A program made the position numbers and the translations under genes. The notes beneath the pieces were generated by a model that saw only the letters and a list, made by a program, of their open reading frames with translations, searched no databases and was not told the origin of the DNA. A stretch of DNA of 22,095 nt from a virus. The DNA lies in IMG/VR virus record IMGVR_UViG_3300034112_000436, positions 1 through 22,095 of that record, one strand, 5' to 3'. This document shows positions 1 to 9,160 of this stretch, one piece after another (position 1 is the first letter of the stretch; every line of letters begins with the position of its first letter).

Positions 1-140
1 AATCTTTGATAGATTTGCTTGAACCGCCGATGAAGCAGTTGCTGAAGGAAAAGCTGAAGATAATGGAAGCAAAGCAGGCGCAGCAGCCGCAACAGCAAAC
101 GCAACAAAGTAAACCTGACCTAAAAGCAGTGGGGGAATAA
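1..140 (+). CDS. Portal protein, C-terminal end (partial)
   Basis: The window opens inside a gene whose reading frame runs from base 3 to a TAA at 138-140. The visible 45 residues start SLIDLLEPPMKQLLKEKLKI and continue into a Gln-rich tail (AQQPQQQTQQ) ending KAVGE. A helix followed by a Gln-rich disordered tail is common at the C-terminus of podovirus portal proteins. The gene lies where a portal is expected, upstream of the scaffold-like and coat genes. The identification rests on position plus this tail style, since no diagnostic portal motif is inside the window. The stop overlaps the next start (TAATG), so the two are translationally coupled. It could also be another head protein placed between portal and scaffold. 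Confidence 0.5.
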   Translation, partial: SLIDLLEPPMKQLLKEKLKIMEAKQAQQPQQQTQQSKPDLKAVGE

Positions 141-307
141 TGGCACAAGATGCAATTTCACCAAAGGCTGACCAACCGAGAGCAGGCACAACGGCTCCGA
201 TGCAAGATTCGCCCCGCCAGCCTAATTTGCAGTATCGGGTGCAAGGCGTAAGGAGTTTTGACCGTAGCCCGTCCACACGGACTTACGGACGTACAGTAAG
301 GGGATAA
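140..307 (+). CDS. Small basic protein, 55 residues, unknown function
   Basis: The ATG at 140 shares its A with the stop of the preceding gene, and a purine-rich GTGGGGGA stretch just upstream serves as ribosome site. The product begins MAQDAISPKADQPRAGTTAP and its second half is rich in Arg, Tyr and Ser (RSFDRSPSTRTYGRTVRG), so the C-terminus is strongly basic. No hydrophobic segment, Cys pair or known motif is visible. The tight coupling and start context support a real gene despite its size. Coupling to the probable portal gene suggests a role in head assembly or with packaged DNA, which is inference. I do not recognise the family. Confidence 0.6.
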   Translation: MAQDAISPKADQPRAGTTAPMQDSPRQPNLQYRVQGVRSFDRSPSTRTYGRTVRG

Positions 308-325
308 ACCTGTCAGGAGATGACG

Positions 326-367
326 ATGTACAAGAAAATGAAGCGCGGTCGCAAGACTCGTCGGTAA
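326..367 (+). CDS. 13-residue Lys/Arg-rich mini-protein (copy 1)
   Basis: This tiny frame reads MYKKMKRGRKTRR and stops at TAA 365-367. Nine of 13 residues are Lys or Arg. An AGGAG at 315-319 sits six bases before ATG 326. An earlier in-frame ATG at 320 would give MTM at the front, but it abuts the AGGAG, so 326 is preferred. Evidence that it is translated is the well-spaced ribosome site and a second gene of exactly the same length and composition 109 bases downstream. Possible roles are a DNA-condensing peptide packed in the head, a capsid-binding peptide, or a leader peptide controlling the following genes. Nothing in the sequence decides between them. Confidence 0.55.
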   Translation: MYKKMKRGRKTRR

Positions 368-389
368 TTCCTAGTAAGGAATGGGGTCT

Positions 390-423
390 GGCTGACTTCC
401 CCTGTTAAGTTGGCCGCATTTTG
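390..423 (+). terminator. Hairpin between the two mini-genes, possible terminator or attenuator
   Basis: GGCTGACTT (390-398) pairs with AAGTTGGCC (407-415), giving nine pairs that include two G-U wobbles, around the loop CCCCTGTT. It is followed by GCATTTTG, so the T run is only four bases. An upstream palindrome TTCCT-AGTA-AGGAA lies at 368-381. The structure could be a weak terminator, an attenuator read with the preceding mini-gene, or an mRNA-stabilising stem. The short T run keeps confidence low. Confidence 0.35.
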
Positions 424-434
424 TGGAGGCTACT

Positions 435-476
435 ATGGCACGCAAAGGTCGCAAAGGTCGTAAAGGCCGCAAGTAA
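435..476 (+). CDS. 13-residue Lys/Arg-rich mini-protein (copy 2)
   Basis: The frame reads MARKGRKGRKGRK and ends with TAA 474-476. A strong GGAGG at 425-429 lies five bases before the ATG, among the best ribosome sites in the window, which argues for real expression. The peptide is a tandem RKG repeat encoded by a nine-base unit (CGCAAAGGT and variants) repeated three times plus a partial copy. Eight of 13 residues are basic. It matches copy 1 in length, charge, ribosome site and the kind of sequence following its stop, suggesting duplication or parallel selection. The RKG repeat resembles protamine or histone-tail sequence, so nucleic-acid or capsid-interior binding is a plausible but unproven role. 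Confidence 0.6.
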   Translation: MARKGRKGRKGRK

Positions 477-581
477 TCCTTAGTGATTTCCCTGCGGGGG
501 CGGGGAGTTTAAATATACGCCCCTACTTGACAAAAGCTATCAAAAAGCTTACTTCTATCGCCAAAATTAATTGGGGTATTT
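477..581 (+). promoter_or_regulatory. Intergenic control region with possible promoter
   Basis: This non-coding stretch precedes the 147-residue gene. A perfect TTGACA lies at 527-532. The best -10 candidates at 16-18 base spacing (around TACTTC, 550-555) match poorly. An inverted repeat AAGCT (534-538) / AGCTT (546-550) falls in the spacer. Upstream, a GC-rich stretch around 496-510 can pair GGGGCG with CGCCCC near 519-524. The combination could separate portal from head-gene transcription. A promoter is only weakly supported. Confidence 0.25.
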
Positions 582-3918: not shown

Positions 3919-4764
3919 ATGGCAACTCTTAACAGCTATATCACGGAAGTCCGTAGGCTGTTGCACGATGCAAACGGGAATTTCTATTCCGACTCCGAAC
4001 TGACTGATTACATCAACGGAGCGCGGGAGCGTGTTGCCAGAGATACCGGCTGTTTAAGAAAACTACAAGTTGCTCAAACACCAATAGCACCCGTAGGCTA
4101 TTCCGGTAATCCGGTAGCGTGGGCTGCGAATACGGCGGTCAATCTGAATGACTTGGTTTTCTCAAACATCTTTACCTATGTCGTTACTACGGCTGGTATA
4201 ACGGGTGATGACCCGCCGCCGTATCCAGATTCTTATACGAACTTCCCGCCATCAACGCCTTTTGCGAATGGCACAGCACAGCTTCAGTATGTCGGCAATG
4301 TTGAGATCATTCCTTATGGCAGTTTGCCGGAAGCTGGTCAGACGCTAGACATTCTGAACATTAATGTGTTTTGGGGGAACAGCCGCTACCCGCTGTCCTA
4401 TATGTCTTGGACACAGTTCAACGCACAGTTGCGGTATTGGCAGAACTACATCGGGCGTCCAGTAGCGTTTTCGGTATTTGGTCAAAACCAGATTTACATT
4501 TCGCCAGTACCTGATCAGGTCTACACCATTGAGGTAGACACGACCATTTTGCCTTTGCCCTTAGTGAATGGCGCAGAGGTCGATACCATTATTGATCCGT
4601 ATACAACACCTGTTGCGTACTACGCATCGTATACGGCGAAGTTTAAAGAACAGTCTTATGGCGAATCTGAAATTTTCTATCAGCAATATGTCAGCAAGGT
4701 TCGCTCTGTACTCAACACCACGTTCACAAGGCGAATGCCTGACCCCTATAGCACTCCGTTCTAA
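3919..4764 (+). CDS. Probable head-tail adaptor protein (gp4-like)
   Basis: The 281-residue product opens with a helical segment MATLNSYITEVRRLLHDANG followed by FYSDSELTDYINGARERVAR, a pattern typical of podovirus adaptor proteins that bind below the portal. A middle part (about 55-200) is beta-like, with NFPPSTPFANGTAQLQYVGN and IYISPVPDQVYTIEVDTTIL. The final region (about 215-281) is helical (YYASYTAKFKEQSYGESEIF) and ends PDPYSTPF. It precedes the gp10-like hub by two bases, the order seen in P22-type genomes. No strong ribosome site is visible at the ATG. Placement supports the call better than any single motif. Confidence 0.6.
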   Translation: MATLNSYITEVRRLLHDANGNFYSDSELTDYINGARERVARDTGCLRKLQVAQTPIAPVGYSGNPVAWAANTAVNLNDLVFSNIFTYVVTTAGITGDDPPPYPDSYTNFPPSTPFANGTAQLQYVGNVEIIPYGSLPEAGQTLDILNINVFWGNSRYPLSYMSWTQFNAQLRYWQNYIGRPVAFSVFGQNQIYISPVPDQVYTIEVDTTILPLPLVNGAEVDTIIDPYTTPVAYYASYTAKFKEQSYGESEIFYQQYVSKVRSVLNTTFTRRMPDPYSTPF

Positions 4765-4766
4765 CT

Positions 4767-6731
4767 ATGGCTGCGACAGAGCAAAAGAAAAGCTACGAAG
4801 TAGTCAAGAACTTCAAAGGTATCAATACCAAAGCTAACCGCACGGCTATTGATAAGGATGAGTTTGCGTGGCTAGAAAATGCCATGCCTATCGGTTACGC
4901 CAACCTCAAGATTGTTCCAACGTACACCACTGCGAACGTCACGTTTGCCAATACAGTAACTACTTTAGCATCTTGCAACATCAACAATGATGATCTTGCG
5001 CTAGGTTTTTGTGCGGACGGAAGGGCAGAATATGTCAACGTCATTGGTTACAGTAAAGGAAATGTCGCAACTACTGGTACGTTTTCTAATGGCGGTATTA
5101 ACGTCACACAGTGGAAAAGCGAACGCATACTTATCGGCGATCCAAACAATGGTGTCTACACTTGGGATGGCACTAATCTTGTATCTATTGGATCAGTTGG
5201 ATCAGTAGTTATTACCAATGGCGGCAGCAATTATGCCAACGTGCCTGCGGTAGTCATTAGCGCCCCGAATGAAACAGGCGGGATACAAGCAGAAGCACAA
5301 GCCTCGGTGTTGGCGAATGTGGTAACAGCGATTACCCTGACAGAAGCCGGATCAGGTTACACCTCGCCGCCTACGGTCACAATCTCCGGTGGTGGTGGCA
5401 CAAACGCGACAGCAATTGCTAGTTTGTCTACGTTTAAAAAAGGCACGGTGTCGGTGCTGATTACAAACGGTGGTTCAGGCTACACCAACGCAGCTAACAC
5501 GGTAGTCACGATTTCAGGTGGTGGCGGTACAAACGCAGCAGGTACGGCAGTGTTGGCAGGTGGTCAAATTACCCGTGTGGTGATGACCAATCCTGGCACG
5601 AACTACACCAACAACTCAAACATCACCGTAACCATTACGGGCGGGGGAGGCAGCAATGCGACAGCCAAAGCAGTCATCCTCACCGACCCCATCTCAGGCA
5701 TCCAAACCTTTTCGGGCAGAACTTGGGTTAGTCAGGGAAGAACGGTTAGTTATTCTGCTGCTGGTAGCTACAGCGACTTTACAAGCGTTTCTGCTGGCGC
5801 ACTTACTCTGACTGATTCGACACTGCACAGTAATATCGTGCAACTGTTGTCAGCCAATAACTTTTTGTACATCTTTGGTGAGGACAGCATTAACGTCTTC
5901 TCTGATGTCAGGGTGACCAATGTTGGCACAACGATTTTTACCAACACAAACGTCAGTGCGTCAGTAGGTACGCGCTTGCCTTACGGTCTGTTCCCGTATT
6001 TTCGTTCAGTATTATTTATGAATGAGTACGGGATGTACGCTTTGGTTGGCTCGACCACATCCAAGATTTCAGACCCGCTAGACGGTGTATTCCCGAACAT
6101 TGACTTTACAACTGCCATTATTACGGCAGGTCAGGTGCTGCTGAATAACATTCTGTGCGCGGCGTTTAACATCCGGTACAACGACAACGGTACTTATCGG
6201 TATGTTCAAGCGGTGTTTTTTGATAAGAAATGGTTTTTTACCAATCAGAACACAGCAACCAAGTTGATTACGTCCATCCAAACAGGCGGCAAGATCAATT
6301 TGTACGGCACGACCGGAACAGACTTGTTGTATCTGTATTCCGATTCTGTAAGCACTGTGCCAAGTCTTATTGAAACGGCATTGATGCCGATGACTGATCC
6401 GATCAGGACAAAGCAGGCGCTAAAGATTGGTATTGAGGCAACTATCTCTGGTGGTGGCATTTTGCTAACAACGGTGGATAGCGAAACTAGCGCCAGCCCT
6501 GTTTATGAACTTGGCAATTACGTCAATTGGATTAATAATTTTGGAAATCCAATTTCTTGGCTTAATAATTCCTCTGCAATTATTTTGTGGATCGGTGGTC
6601 AGGGATTTGTGCTGTACAAAACAGACGCGCAGCAATGGGGTAAGTATCTTGGTATGACCGTTACTTCCAATTCATCAGCAATGGTGATTAACGGTTTTGA
6701 GTACGAACATGAATTGAGAGTGAGGTTCTAA
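4767..6731 (+). CDS. Tail hub or stabilisation protein, P22 gp10-like, with repeat insertion
   Basis: Residues about 10-50 carry NFKGINTKANRTAIDKDEFA and WLENAMPIGYANLK, a signature of the gp10-type hub or DNA-stabilisation proteins of podoviruses, which plug the portal channel and anchor tail parts. The product is 654 residues, against 472 for P22 gp10. Most of the extra length lies in residues about 145-304: four related units of about 40 residues ending in a TISGGGGTNAT-like turn. After them the hub-like sequence resumes (FSGRTWVSQGRTVSYSAAGS, FLYIFGEDSINVFSDVR, FFDKKWFFTNQ). Start two bases after the adaptor stop suggests coupling. Confidence 0.75.
   Translation: MAATEQKKSYEVVKNFKGINTKANRTAIDKDEFAWLENAMPIGYANLKIVPTYTTANVTFANTVTTLASCNINNDDLALGFCADGRAEYVNVIGYSKGNVATTGTFSNGGINVTQWKSERILIGDPNNGVYTWDGTNLVSIGSVGSVVITNGGSNYANVPAVVISAPNETGGIQAEAQASVLANVVTAITLTEAGSGYTSPPTVTISGGGGTNATAIASLSTFKKGTVSVLITNGGSGYTNAANTVVTISGGGGTNAAGTAVLAGGQITRVVMTNPGTNYTNNSNITVTITGGGGSNATAKAVILTDPISGIQTFSGRTWVSQGRTVSYSAAGSYSDFTSVSAGALTLTDSTLHSNIVQLLSANNFLYIFGEDSINVFSDVRVTNVGTTIFTNTNVSASVGTRLPYGLFPYFRSVLFMNEYGMYALVGSTTSKISDPLDGVFPNIDFTTAIITAGQVLLNNILCAAFNIRYNDNGTYRYVQAVFFDKKWFFTNQNTATKLITSIQTGGKINLYGTTGTDLLYLYSDSVSTVPSLIETALMPMTDPIRTKQALKIGIEATISGGGILLTTVDSETSASPVYELGNYVNWINNFGNPISWLNNSSAIILWIGGQGFVLYKTDAQQWGKYLGMTVTSNSSAMVINGFEYEHELRVRF
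5199..5678 (+). repeat. Four degenerate protein repeats in the hub gene
   Basis: Residues about 145-190, 185-225, 228-265 and 267-304 of the hub share the scheme (V/I)xxLITNGGSGYT...VTISGGGGTNAT. Best conserved parts are GSGYT/GSNYA/GTNYT and TISGGGG/TITGGGG. Unit length is about 39-42 residues (roughly 120 bases). The nucleotide copies are diverged, so this is an old duplication, not a recent tandem array. The first unit lacks the glycine run. Confidence 0.75.
6527..6570 (+). repeat. Short direct repeat near the hub 3' end
   Basis: TTGGATTAATAATT (6527-6540) recurs as TTGGCTTAATAATT (6557-6570), 30 bases apart, with 13 of 14 bases identical. It encodes WINN and WLNN in the hub C-terminal region and is AT-rich relative to its surroundings. 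Confidence 0.6.
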
Positions 6732-7520
6732 ATGCCAGTTCCAAATACATTTGCCAATGCAACAACGTCTATACCGTTGTCGCAATTGGATGCCAATTTT
6801 GCTACCCCGATCACGTTAGGCAATACTGCTATCCAGCTTGGCAACACGGTCACAACACTCAACAACATGAGTTTTGCGAATGTGACCATCACTAGCGTAT
6901 CAACACCGATTACTGCTGCACAAGGCGGTACTGGTTTAACCAGTTTGACCGCAGAGAATGTGTTGATTGGTAATGGCGCAAATGCAGTCAAGGTTGTAGC
7001 GCCAGGCACTGCTGGTAACGTGCTGGTGTCTACGGGAACCACTTGGGCTAGCCAAGCACCAGGAGCAGCAAGCGGCAACGTCACCATTGGTAATACAACC
7101 ATTGCGTTAGGTGGCACAAGCAGTTCGTTAGGCAATGTTACGTTAAACAATGCGACTGCGGGTAATGCCGTATCTGATAGCGCCAATGTAGTTGGCTATA
7201 TCGGTCTGCCACAGAATAGCCAGAATGGTAATTACAACGTCGTGTTGGGGGATGCGGGTAAACATATTTATCACCCGACAGGCCAAGCAGCAGCGACTTA
7301 CACTTTTCCTGCAAACTCTAACGTGGCATTCACGGTGGGTTCAGCGGTTACGATCATCAATGGTTCTGCCAACAACGTCACGATCTCTTTGACAACAGAC
7401 ACGCTGTATTTGTCATCAAATGGCGCAACTGGTAGCAGAACACTAACCCAGTGGGGTGTGGCAACCGCAGTCAAGATTTCTAGCCAAGTTTGGGTTATCT
7501 CTGGATCGAATATCACATGA
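6732..7520 (+). CDS. Tail fibre-like structural protein (262 residues)
   Basis: The product is Asn/Thr/Gly/Val-rich and beta-patterned, with repeated GNT and NVT stretches (LGNTAIQLGNTVTTLNNMSF, GNVTIGNTTIALGGTSSSLG). It carries AAQGGTGLTS at about residues 63-72, a motif recurrent in phage tail fibre shafts. The C-terminal 90 residues (VVLGDAGKHIYHPTGQAAAT; VTISLTTDTLYLSSNGATGS) look like a tip or trimer-forming module. The ATG follows the hub stop directly and its own stop overlaps the next start (ATGA). Fibre shafts of this kind link to the tail hub encoded just upstream. Exact role and receptor are unknown. Confidence 0.65.
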   Translation: MPVPNTFANATTSIPLSQLDANFATPITLGNTAIQLGNTVTTLNNMSFANVTITSVSTPITAAQGGTGLTSLTAENVLIGNGANAVKVVAPGTAGNVLVSTGTTWASQAPGAASGNVTIGNTTIALGGTSSSLGNVTLNNATAGNAVSDSANVVGYIGLPQNSQNGNYNVVLGDAGKHIYHPTGQAAATYTFPANSNVAFTVGSAVTIINGSANNVTISLTTDTLYLSSNGATGSRTLTQWGVATAVKISSQVWVISGSNIT

Positions 7521-9160
7521 CAGGCATCCTACAAGCACTTTTGATGGGTTATGGCGCTGCTGGAGGCGGTGGCGGTTTAACCATCATCGAAACTTTCACA
7601 TCGACAAAGGACTGGACTTGTCCAGATGGTGTCACGCAAGTGGACTATTTGGTGGTGGCAGGTGGTGGTGGTGGGGGCGGTGCAAGCCCCGGAGATTATT
7701 GTGCTGGCGGTGGTGGTGCTGGTGGCTTCCGTACTGGTACTGGTTTGTCTGTCACCGCTGGCACAACTTACACAGTGACTGTTGGCGGTGGTGGGAATGG
7801 TGGTGCGGCTGGTTCAAATCAAGGAAGTAGCGGATCAAATTCTGTTTTTTCTACGATTACATCTAATGGCGGTGGTGGCGGGGCAAAAGGACAACCAAGT
7901 TCAGGAACAATACAAGGGTCATCGGGTGGTTCTGGTGGTGGTTCTAGTTATAGTTCGCCCGGAGGGGCTGGTAACACGCCTTCAACATCTCCATCACAAG
8001 GAAATAATGGTGGAGCTGGAGCTATATTTAGCGCACAGTTTGGCGGGGGAGGTGGTGGTGGTGCGAGTGCAGTTGGTAGCGATGGATCAGGAACAAAAGG
8101 CGGTGACGGCGGCAACGGAACAGCATCTACGCTTTCAGGAAGTTCAGTAACCTATGCTGGTGGTGGTGGCGGTGGTGGTTATACAGCTCCTGCTTCAACA
8201 AATGCTGGAGCTGGTGGTACTGGTGGCGGAGCAAATGGCGGCGCTAAATCTACTGGTTCTAGTGCAACAGCAAATACTGGTGGTGGCGGCGGCGGTACTG
8301 GTTCTTCTGGAACTCCGAGCGCATCTTTCGCTGGCGGTGCTGGCGGCTCTGGCGTAGTCATCATTAAGTACACAGCACCATCTAACAACGTGCTTGTGTT
8401 CAAAGGTTCATCTCAATGGACTTGCCCAACAGGTGTGACCAGCGTTGATTATCTGGTCGTAGCTGGTGGTGGTGGTGGTGGCGATGGTGCTGCTGCTGCT
8501 GGTGGCGGCGCTGGTGGCTTTAGAACAGGCACAAGTTTATCGGTTACCGCAGGAAATACCTACACGGTAACGGTCGGCGCAGGCGGCGCTGGTGGGTCTA
8601 GTGGCGGGTTAAGGGGTTCTTCAGGGGGGAATTCGGTTTTTTCCTCAATTACGTCTAATGGTGGCGGCGGAGGTGGGTCATCAAATTCGGGGGAAAGAAT
8701 TGGCGGTAGTGGCGGTTCGGGGGGTGGTGGTTCAGGGGATGGTAATAACGCTGGCGGAGCGGGCAACACTCCCAGCACATCACCGTCCCAAGGAAATAAC
8801 GGTGGGTCAGGTTTAGATGGAGGAGCGACTAATGCTGGCGGTGGCGGTGGTGGAGCTTCTGCTGCTGGTGGAAGCGCGTCTGGTTCTCCAGTTGCGCCCG
8901 GAAATGGTGGCAATGGAACGGCATCAAGCATTTCAGGTTCGTCTGTGACTTACGCTGGCGGCGGTGGAGGGCATCGAAATGCCCAATCGCCCAACCCCGG
9001 TGGTACTGGAGGCACAGGTGGTGGAGGTAATGGCGGGGGTGAAAATAACAATCCTGCTGGTTCTGCCGGTACTGCAAACACGGGCGGCGGTGGTGGTGGT
9101 ACAGAAAACACTTCCTATGCTGGCGGCTCCGGTATCGTAATTATTAAACTCAATTCATAA
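7517..9160 (+). CDS. Glycine-rich tail fibre or adhesin with duplicated module
   Basis: I place the start at ATG 7517 (ATGA overlap with the previous stop), giving 547 residues. A frame start at 7490 would lie inside the upstream gene. The protein is mainly glycine runs with a short hydrophobic N-terminus (MTGILQALLMGYGAAGGGGG). It contains two copies of a module beginning WTCPxGVTxVDYLVVAGGGG and continuing GGFRTGT and TAGTTYTVTVG. Each copy ends in (V/I)VIIK. This matches the glycine-rich domain widespread in phage tail and bacterial surface proteins. Long glycine runs can pack as polyglycine II helices, as in the adhesin of Salmonella phage S16. Receptor binding at the fibre tip is the likely role. 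Confidence 0.75.
   Translation: MTGILQALLMGYGAAGGGGGLTIIETFTSTKDWTCPDGVTQVDYLVVAGGGGGGGASPGDYCAGGGGAGGFRTGTGLSVTAGTTYTVTVGGGGNGGAAGSNQGSSGSNSVFSTITSNGGGGGAKGQPSSGTIQGSSGGSGGGSSYSSPGGAGNTPSTSPSQGNNGGAGAIFSAQFGGGGGGGASAVGSDGSGTKGGDGGNGTASTLSGSSVTYAGGGGGGGYTAPASTNAGAGGTGGGANGGAKSTGSSATANTGGGGGGTGSSGTPSASFAGGAGGSGVVIIKYTAPSNNVLVFKGSSQWTCPTGVTSVDYLVVAGGGGGGDGAAAAGGGAGGFRTGTSLSVTAGNTYTVTVGAGGAGGSSGGLRGSSGGNSVFSSITSNGGGGGGSSNSGERIGGSGGSGGGGSGDGNNAGGAGNTPSTSPSQGNNGGSGLDGGATNAGGGGGGASAAGGSASGSPVAPGNGGNGTASSISGSSVTYAGGGGGHRNAQSPNPGGTGGTGGGGNGGGENNNPAGSAGTANTGGGGGGTENTSYAGGSGIVIIKLNS
7613..9157 (+). repeat. Two tandem glycine-rich modules
   Basis: Copy A starts at the codon for W33 (7613) and copy B at W301 (8417), so the period is about 268 residues (804 bases). 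Conserved landmarks in order are WTCP-GVT, VDYLVVAGGGG, GGFRTGT, SVTAG-TYTVTVG, NSVFS-ITSNGGGGG, AGNTPSTSPSQGNNGG, GGNGTAS, SGSSVTYAGGGGG, TANTGGGGGGT and GSG(V/I)VIIK. Indels lie between landmarks. Confidence 0.85.

Follow-up and report, generated by a model that had tools for sequence, protein, structure and literature searches.

Tandem 13-codon mini-genes for lysine/arginine-rich peptides and a candidate RNA pseudoknot in the packaging/head gene block of a dsDNA phage group

The neutralization of DNA charge in tailed phages is generally ascribed to ions and polyamines. In the microvirus phiX174, each RF molecule carries a coat of about 120 copies of protein J, which also guides the genome within the capsid (PMC13386984). 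Adenovirus core peptide X (mu) is arginine-rich and DNA-condensing; its mature form has 19 residues and is present in 100-300 copies per virion (PMC7998265). A phage RNA pseudoknot is known from the gene 32 mRNA of T4, where it lies 5' of the ribosome site and serves as translational operator, so that gp32 represses its own mRNA (PMC535899). A survey of small genes in bacteria worked with a lower limit of 15 codons (PMC11188072), and the genes described here, with 13 codons, fall below that limit.

We analyzed a stretch of viral DNA of 22,095 nucleotides (IMG/VR record IMGVR_UViG_3300034112_000436), referred to as the window. From its 5' end it encodes a portal C-terminus, a 55-aa ORF, mini1, mini2, a 147-aa gene, a 61-aa gene, a scaffold-like gene and the major capsid gene (phrog_9953). 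A sequence-only reading had described two frames of 42 bases between portal and head genes, each with its own well-spaced Shine-Dalgarno sequence (SD) and each encoding a peptide with more than 60% basic residues. This description was borne out (Table 1). Both genes have 13 codons, 8 of the 13 residues (62%) are basic in either product, and the pair is preceded by the portal C-terminus and followed by the scaffold and capsid genes. A second in-frame ATG of mini1, at position 320, follows the SD without a gap and probably does not serve as a start. At the promoter-like site that follows mini2, a strict consensus scan gave no detection. Further downstream, the window holds a glycine-rich 556-aa ORF (7490-9160), whose halves resemble repeats of each other and which perhaps encodes a tail-tip or receptor-binding protein.

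Table 1. Features around the mini-genes, in coordinates of the window.
Feature	Position	Strand	Remarks
55-aa ORF	140..307	+	basic C-terminus (...YGRTVRG); conserved within the main clade
SD of mini1, AGGAG	315..319	+	6 nt to ATG; from sequence, retained in relatives
mini1 gene	326..367	+	ATG 326, stop 365-367; product MYKKMKRGRKTRR; position and frame conserved among relatives
Small hairpin TTCCT-AGTA-AGGAA	368..381	+	directly 3' of the mini1 stop
Pseudoknot stem 1	383-386 with 399-402	+	AU, GC, CG and UA all at one pair; RNAalifold recovers the stem unaided
Pseudoknot stem 2	389-397 with 408-416	+	crosses stem 1; CG/UA and CG/AU/UA swaps
SD of mini2, GGAGG	425..429	+	5 nt to ATG; from sequence, retained in relatives
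mini2 gene	435..476	+	ATG 435, stop 474-476; product MARKGRKGRKGRK; pN/pS, motif scan, Arg codons
Promoter-like TTGACA-N17-TACTTC	527..555	+	upstream of the next operon; TTGAC box recurs in relatives; weak, compared by eye

A search with the major capsid protein (MCP) yielded 80 relatives, and both mini-ORFs were found at the same place in dozens of them. Additional searches and de-duplication, with at least 1.5 kb of upstream sequence required, gave 237 loci, 231 of them in the group. Under strict criteria, which demanded at least 4 nt of SD, these 231 distinct loci comprise 126 pairs, 5 triples, 41 single mini-genes and 59 loci with none, and the position is kept across all 126 pairs. With looser criteria, several single-gene loci become pairs in which the SD is weaker or the start codon differs (e.g., L207, L168, L242, L245 and L239). 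The SDs are mostly AGGAG or GGAG located 5-8 nt from the start, in a set for which inclusion itself needed at least 4 nt of SD. The short basic frames that the sequence-only reading proposed to look for in related genomes are therefore present at the same site. It had also named, as evidence against its proposal, relatives that lack such frames or carry broken ones; this is not what is seen, except that two subclades are without strict mini-genes.

Very short frames are frequent in random DNA. However, the 0.30 Mb of target strand contained 308 SD-preceded ORFs of 7-20 aa whose Lys/Arg content was 45% or more, and 3.8 Mb from elsewhere in the same loci contained 2, i.e., about 103 versus 0.05 per 100 kb. 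Furthermore, two patterns, one for the mini1 end and a degenerate one for the end of the mini2 peptide, were scanned over 2.9 million viral contigs. Among the matches listed, 78 of 80 loci with the mini2 pattern were mini2 genes of this phage group, with a capsid gene 1.3-2.4 kb 3' of mini2 wherever an MCP match existed. The mini1 pattern led to newly fetched loci of which, again among the matches listed, 50 of 50 adjoin the group's portal, 147-aa, scaffold or capsid genes. Taken together, 128 of the 130 examined matches among those listed lie at this locus. We regard chance ORFs as ruled out by the 308 to 2 count, and the return of both scans to the locus leaves them a negligible probability.

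In-frame pN/pS (raw) was 0.53 for mini1 and 0.36 for mini2, compared with 1.38-2.74 in other frames, the ratios being descriptive values from non-independent sequence pairs with no formal test attached. Codon position 3 is the most variable, and mini-gene length changes in whole codons (mostly 9-15 residues, with single longer variants of 17-23). Among the distinct 13-residue mini1 peptides, all 41 have R9, K10 and R13. Conserved position with an excess of synonymous change, which had been put forward as support for coding, was thus observed. Together with the in-frame length changes, the kept SDs and the fact that relatives have either no gene or opposite-strand ORFs annotated at this site, it upholds the earlier claim that these are real and widely missed genes. 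From these comparisons we consider it near certain that mini1 and mini2 are genuine genes.

The 131 distinct peptides consist of 33.5% R and 30.8% K (64% K+R), followed by G, A, S, T, Y, H, M and C. Acidic residues are nearly nil (D 0.1%, E none), W and L are absent, and the net charge ranges from +5 to +10. Judged from this composition, the peptides would be disordered. They cannot be enzymes. A peptide set with 64% K+R, essentially no D or E and neither W nor L fits a nucleic-acid binder, unlike an amphipathic membrane peptide. At several columns R and K are not freely swapped, hinting toward recognition beyond bulk charge. All 445 Arg codons of mini2 are CGT or CGC; the share of these codons is 86% in mini1, 80% in the MCP gene and 36% in the other window genes. 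The strong SD and the exclusive use of CGT/CGC suggest that mini2 is heavily translated and its product made in many copies.

Composition, location in the late packaging block and codon bias favor a stoichiometric nucleic-acid-binding role. The explanation we prefer, with a probability of roughly 0.4, is that the products act in packaging or inside the head as protamine-like nucleic-acid-binding peptides. Mini1 and mini2 would be produced together with the terminase/portal packaging genes, as disordered peptides of 9-15 residues (rarely longer) that carry a charge of about +8, lack acidic residues and have hardly any hydrophobic ones. They would bind nucleic acid as small protamine-like counter-ions or DNA organizers, during DNA packaging or within the head, and the pseudoknot upstream of the mini2 ribosome site would adjust mini2 translation. 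DNA condensation or a capsid function is plausible.

The hairpin after the mini1 stop has GNRA-type loops in many relatives. Its score was 4.84, whereas shuffles averaged 2.25 and did not exceed 2.87 (88 distinct sequences). The stem differs on both sides between relatives, and the loop and stem sequences vary widely. Between this hairpin and the mini2 SD lies a predicted H-type pseudoknot (383-416) with a two-base loop and the invariant core UGGCU, in which 89.1% of cells are paired across 63 distinct sequences. We counted 69 cells changed on both sides versus 20.5 ± 3.4 in shuffled and 0-15 in slid controls, and a covariation score of 0.233 versus 0.091 ± 0.008 shuffled and at most 0.129 slid; the model was proposed from the same sequences on which it was scored, and kinship inflates the shuffle tests and is preserved in the slid controls. 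One base pair of stem 1 is found as four pair types and one of stem 2 as three, and divergent pseudoknots swap both strands together, such as CCTGCTC with GAGTAGG in L233. Single-sequence folding of the window was no more stable than that of shuffles (z -0.23), and it is consequently covariation that carries the case for RNA structure. The pseudoknot region had no Rfam match at the gathering score, and a U7 hit at E 3.3 was judged to be chance. A terminator reading of 389-416 was rejected: the match of the terminator scan is stem 2 of the pseudoknot, and the T-rich tail is not general. No convincing terminator-like hairpin was seen in the window.

With its good covariation, the pseudoknot is in our view a candidate for a new structured RNA. 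Within the main clade it accompanies mini2; none of 14 mini1-type last-gene loci has it, and the deep clades lack it as well. The pseudoknot therefore looks like an added control of mini2 that is not core to peptide function, and as a cis-acting element just upstream of the mini2 ribosome site it probably tunes mini2 translation. Since a covarying pseudoknot and a hairpin directly adjoin the genes, the products might be arginine-rich RNA-binding regulators of phage mRNA and not virion components, perhaps acting on these very structures in autogenous control. The conserved order of R and K would suit such a role, and repression by T4 gp32 of its own mRNA via a pseudoknot 5' of the ribosome site is a precedent (PMC535899). 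However, mini1-only phages and the deep clades retain the peptides without the pseudoknot, the varying hairpin offers no fixed binding sequence, and a regulator would not need a high-copy codon bias. We consider this explanation unlikely.

The same structures bear on the earlier suggestion of leader peptides, according to which the translation of Lys/Arg codons would set RNA folding for the downstream head operon, by attenuation or coupling, and the product itself would be irrelevant. Short, basic genes next to RNA structures are what this predicts, and in the deep-clade relative L257 a terminator-like hairpin follows. Yet purifying selection acts on the amino acids while synonymous change is free, and the pseudoknot precedes mini2 and does not lie between mini2 and the head operon. 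In addition, the promoter-like site follows mini2, some phages have one or three copies, and the RNA context differs in the deep clades, which keep the peptides without the pseudoknot. Leader peptides are thus disfavored and, in our estimate, very improbable.

The post-stop flank TAAT-CCT-AGT shared by the two genes had been taken as a hint of duplication. Only the window and its nearest relatives show it; in other loci the two flanks are hairpins of different sequence, and flank similarity is at most weak evidence. A mini-gene duplication is suggested by the paralogue-like triples in L111, L113, L198, L233 and L268.

These triples stand in tandem upstream of the capsid gene. Their extra first gene ends in ...RKSCK and always encodes the sole Cys of the set. 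One Cys is likewise present in the peptide of single-mini-gene main-clade lineages (L024, L029, L031, L033, L025, L028, L061 and L062; RKCRR, RKMCK or RKCRK). Most pair peptides are without Cys, and genomes with two Cys peptides were not found. The lone Cys might permit disulfide dimers. Other loci differ in length or arrangement. The mini2 of L182, located at about -1546 relative to the capsid gene, has grown to 22 residues in a repeat-like manner (MARRGRKAHKGHKARKGRKARK). In L018 an inserted 155-aa ORF, HNH homing endonuclease-like as judged by eye only, separates the 147-aa gene from the 61-aa gene (about -1268 to -800 relative to the capsid gene). In L093 two additional genes of 184 and 135 aa follow the mini-genes and precede the 147-aa gene (-2289 to -1280 relative to the capsid gene).

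A tree built from scaffold plus MCP shows the pair in each of the three deep clades (capsid protein identity ~65%, ~74% and >83%), indicating that the mini-genes are old. The state without mini-genes requires two changes on this tree, which was built by a quick method and has some long branches. In the two subclades without strict mini-genes, the genes were lost or a weaker relative was kept, and one of these subclades has a capsid protein ~95% identical to that of the window. In one clade of this kind, some members have a proline-rich, less basic relative at the same site (MYGKMPKPMKKPPMRDGKRS in L205, MAYKMPMKPMKRPPMRDGKRS in L274). No convincing relocated or substitute mini-genes were detected elsewhere in six genomes without them, and genomes lacking mini-genes are not smaller (35.6-39.7 kb vs 36.3 kb). 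With two such subclades and no equivalent elsewhere in the genomes examined, the peptides do not seem indispensable; by this distribution the mini-genes are old yet dispensable in some lineages. In the more distant Mx8 and BUCT555 (capsid ~28% identical) there are no such ORFs. The N-terminus of the 147-aa gene (582-1025) is more acidic in phages without the pair; charge compensation by this neighboring protein was rejected, as the association has no support on independent branches.

Differing presence in phages with nearly identical capsid proteins would be expected of accessory, host-directed peptides, for example ones that bind nucleic acid or an acidic host factor in takeover or counter-defense and are lost in some lineages. 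Many small phage proteins do target the host (PMC11323111). On the other hand, the mini-genes always lie within the late packaging/head block and never elsewhere in the genomes examined, and the peptides have none of the hydrophobic residues that membrane-active peptides need. We hold a host-directed function to be improbable, and the probability left over after all these explanations goes to none in particular. Against a packaging role stand the absence of strict mini-genes in two subclades, the restricted R/K exchange and the deep clades without a pseudoknot. For the preferred explanation we infer nucleic-acid binding, a role in the head and regulation by the pseudoknot. A bolder version, which we rate as a long shot, is an ancient dedicated family of 9-15-codon genes, among the shortest conserved genes known and in tandem arrays of up to three, whose protamine-like products would enter the head with the DNA and would set their own dose by acting on the pseudoknot of their mRNA.

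A comparison of portal and capsid proteins with the annotated phage collection brought up just two closely related genomes, which come from Manatee Spring and are uncultured, and no cultured phage of this group. In MW202753.1 two minus-strand hypothetical proteins are annotated over the mini-gene site (4740-5038), and in MW202825.1 one opposite-strand hypothetical protein (25683-25943); the mini-genes are unannotated in both, and the opposite-strand proteins are probably spurious. A literature search, thin on subscription journals, found no report of this mini-gene family. Conserved genes so short fall under common gene-finder limits, and they are missing from the annotation of both deposited relatives. 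In this respect they resemble the predicted small phage genes of Fremin et al. (2022), as cited in PMC11323111, which were unannotated and found by conservation. The mini-genes show that strong selection acts on some phage peptides of 10 residues and that position combined with composition can reveal such peptides.

Like phiX174 J, the mini-peptides are small and very basic; J is known to bind the genome, as the mini-peptides would on the reading preferred here. Whereas J belongs to a ssDNA phage, the two or three mini-peptides of 9-15 residues come from dsDNA phages that have a terminase and a portal; no homology is claimed. Protein J is also longer than these peptides. They share shortness and arginine richness with adenovirus mu, of which DNA condensation is a feature. 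Whereas mu is cut by a protease from a precursor in a eukaryotic virus, each mini-peptide has its own gene, and again we claim no homology. In type and location the candidate pseudoknot is like the operator of T4 gene 32: both are pseudoknots in phage RNA that lie 5' of the ribosome site for a product that binds nucleic acid, or in the case of mini2 would bind it. The candidate differs from the operator in sequence and phage group and precedes a 13-codon gene, and autogenous repression is a feature of T4. If the peptides are virion DNA organizers, this would be a case of a tailed phage using protamine-like neutralization.
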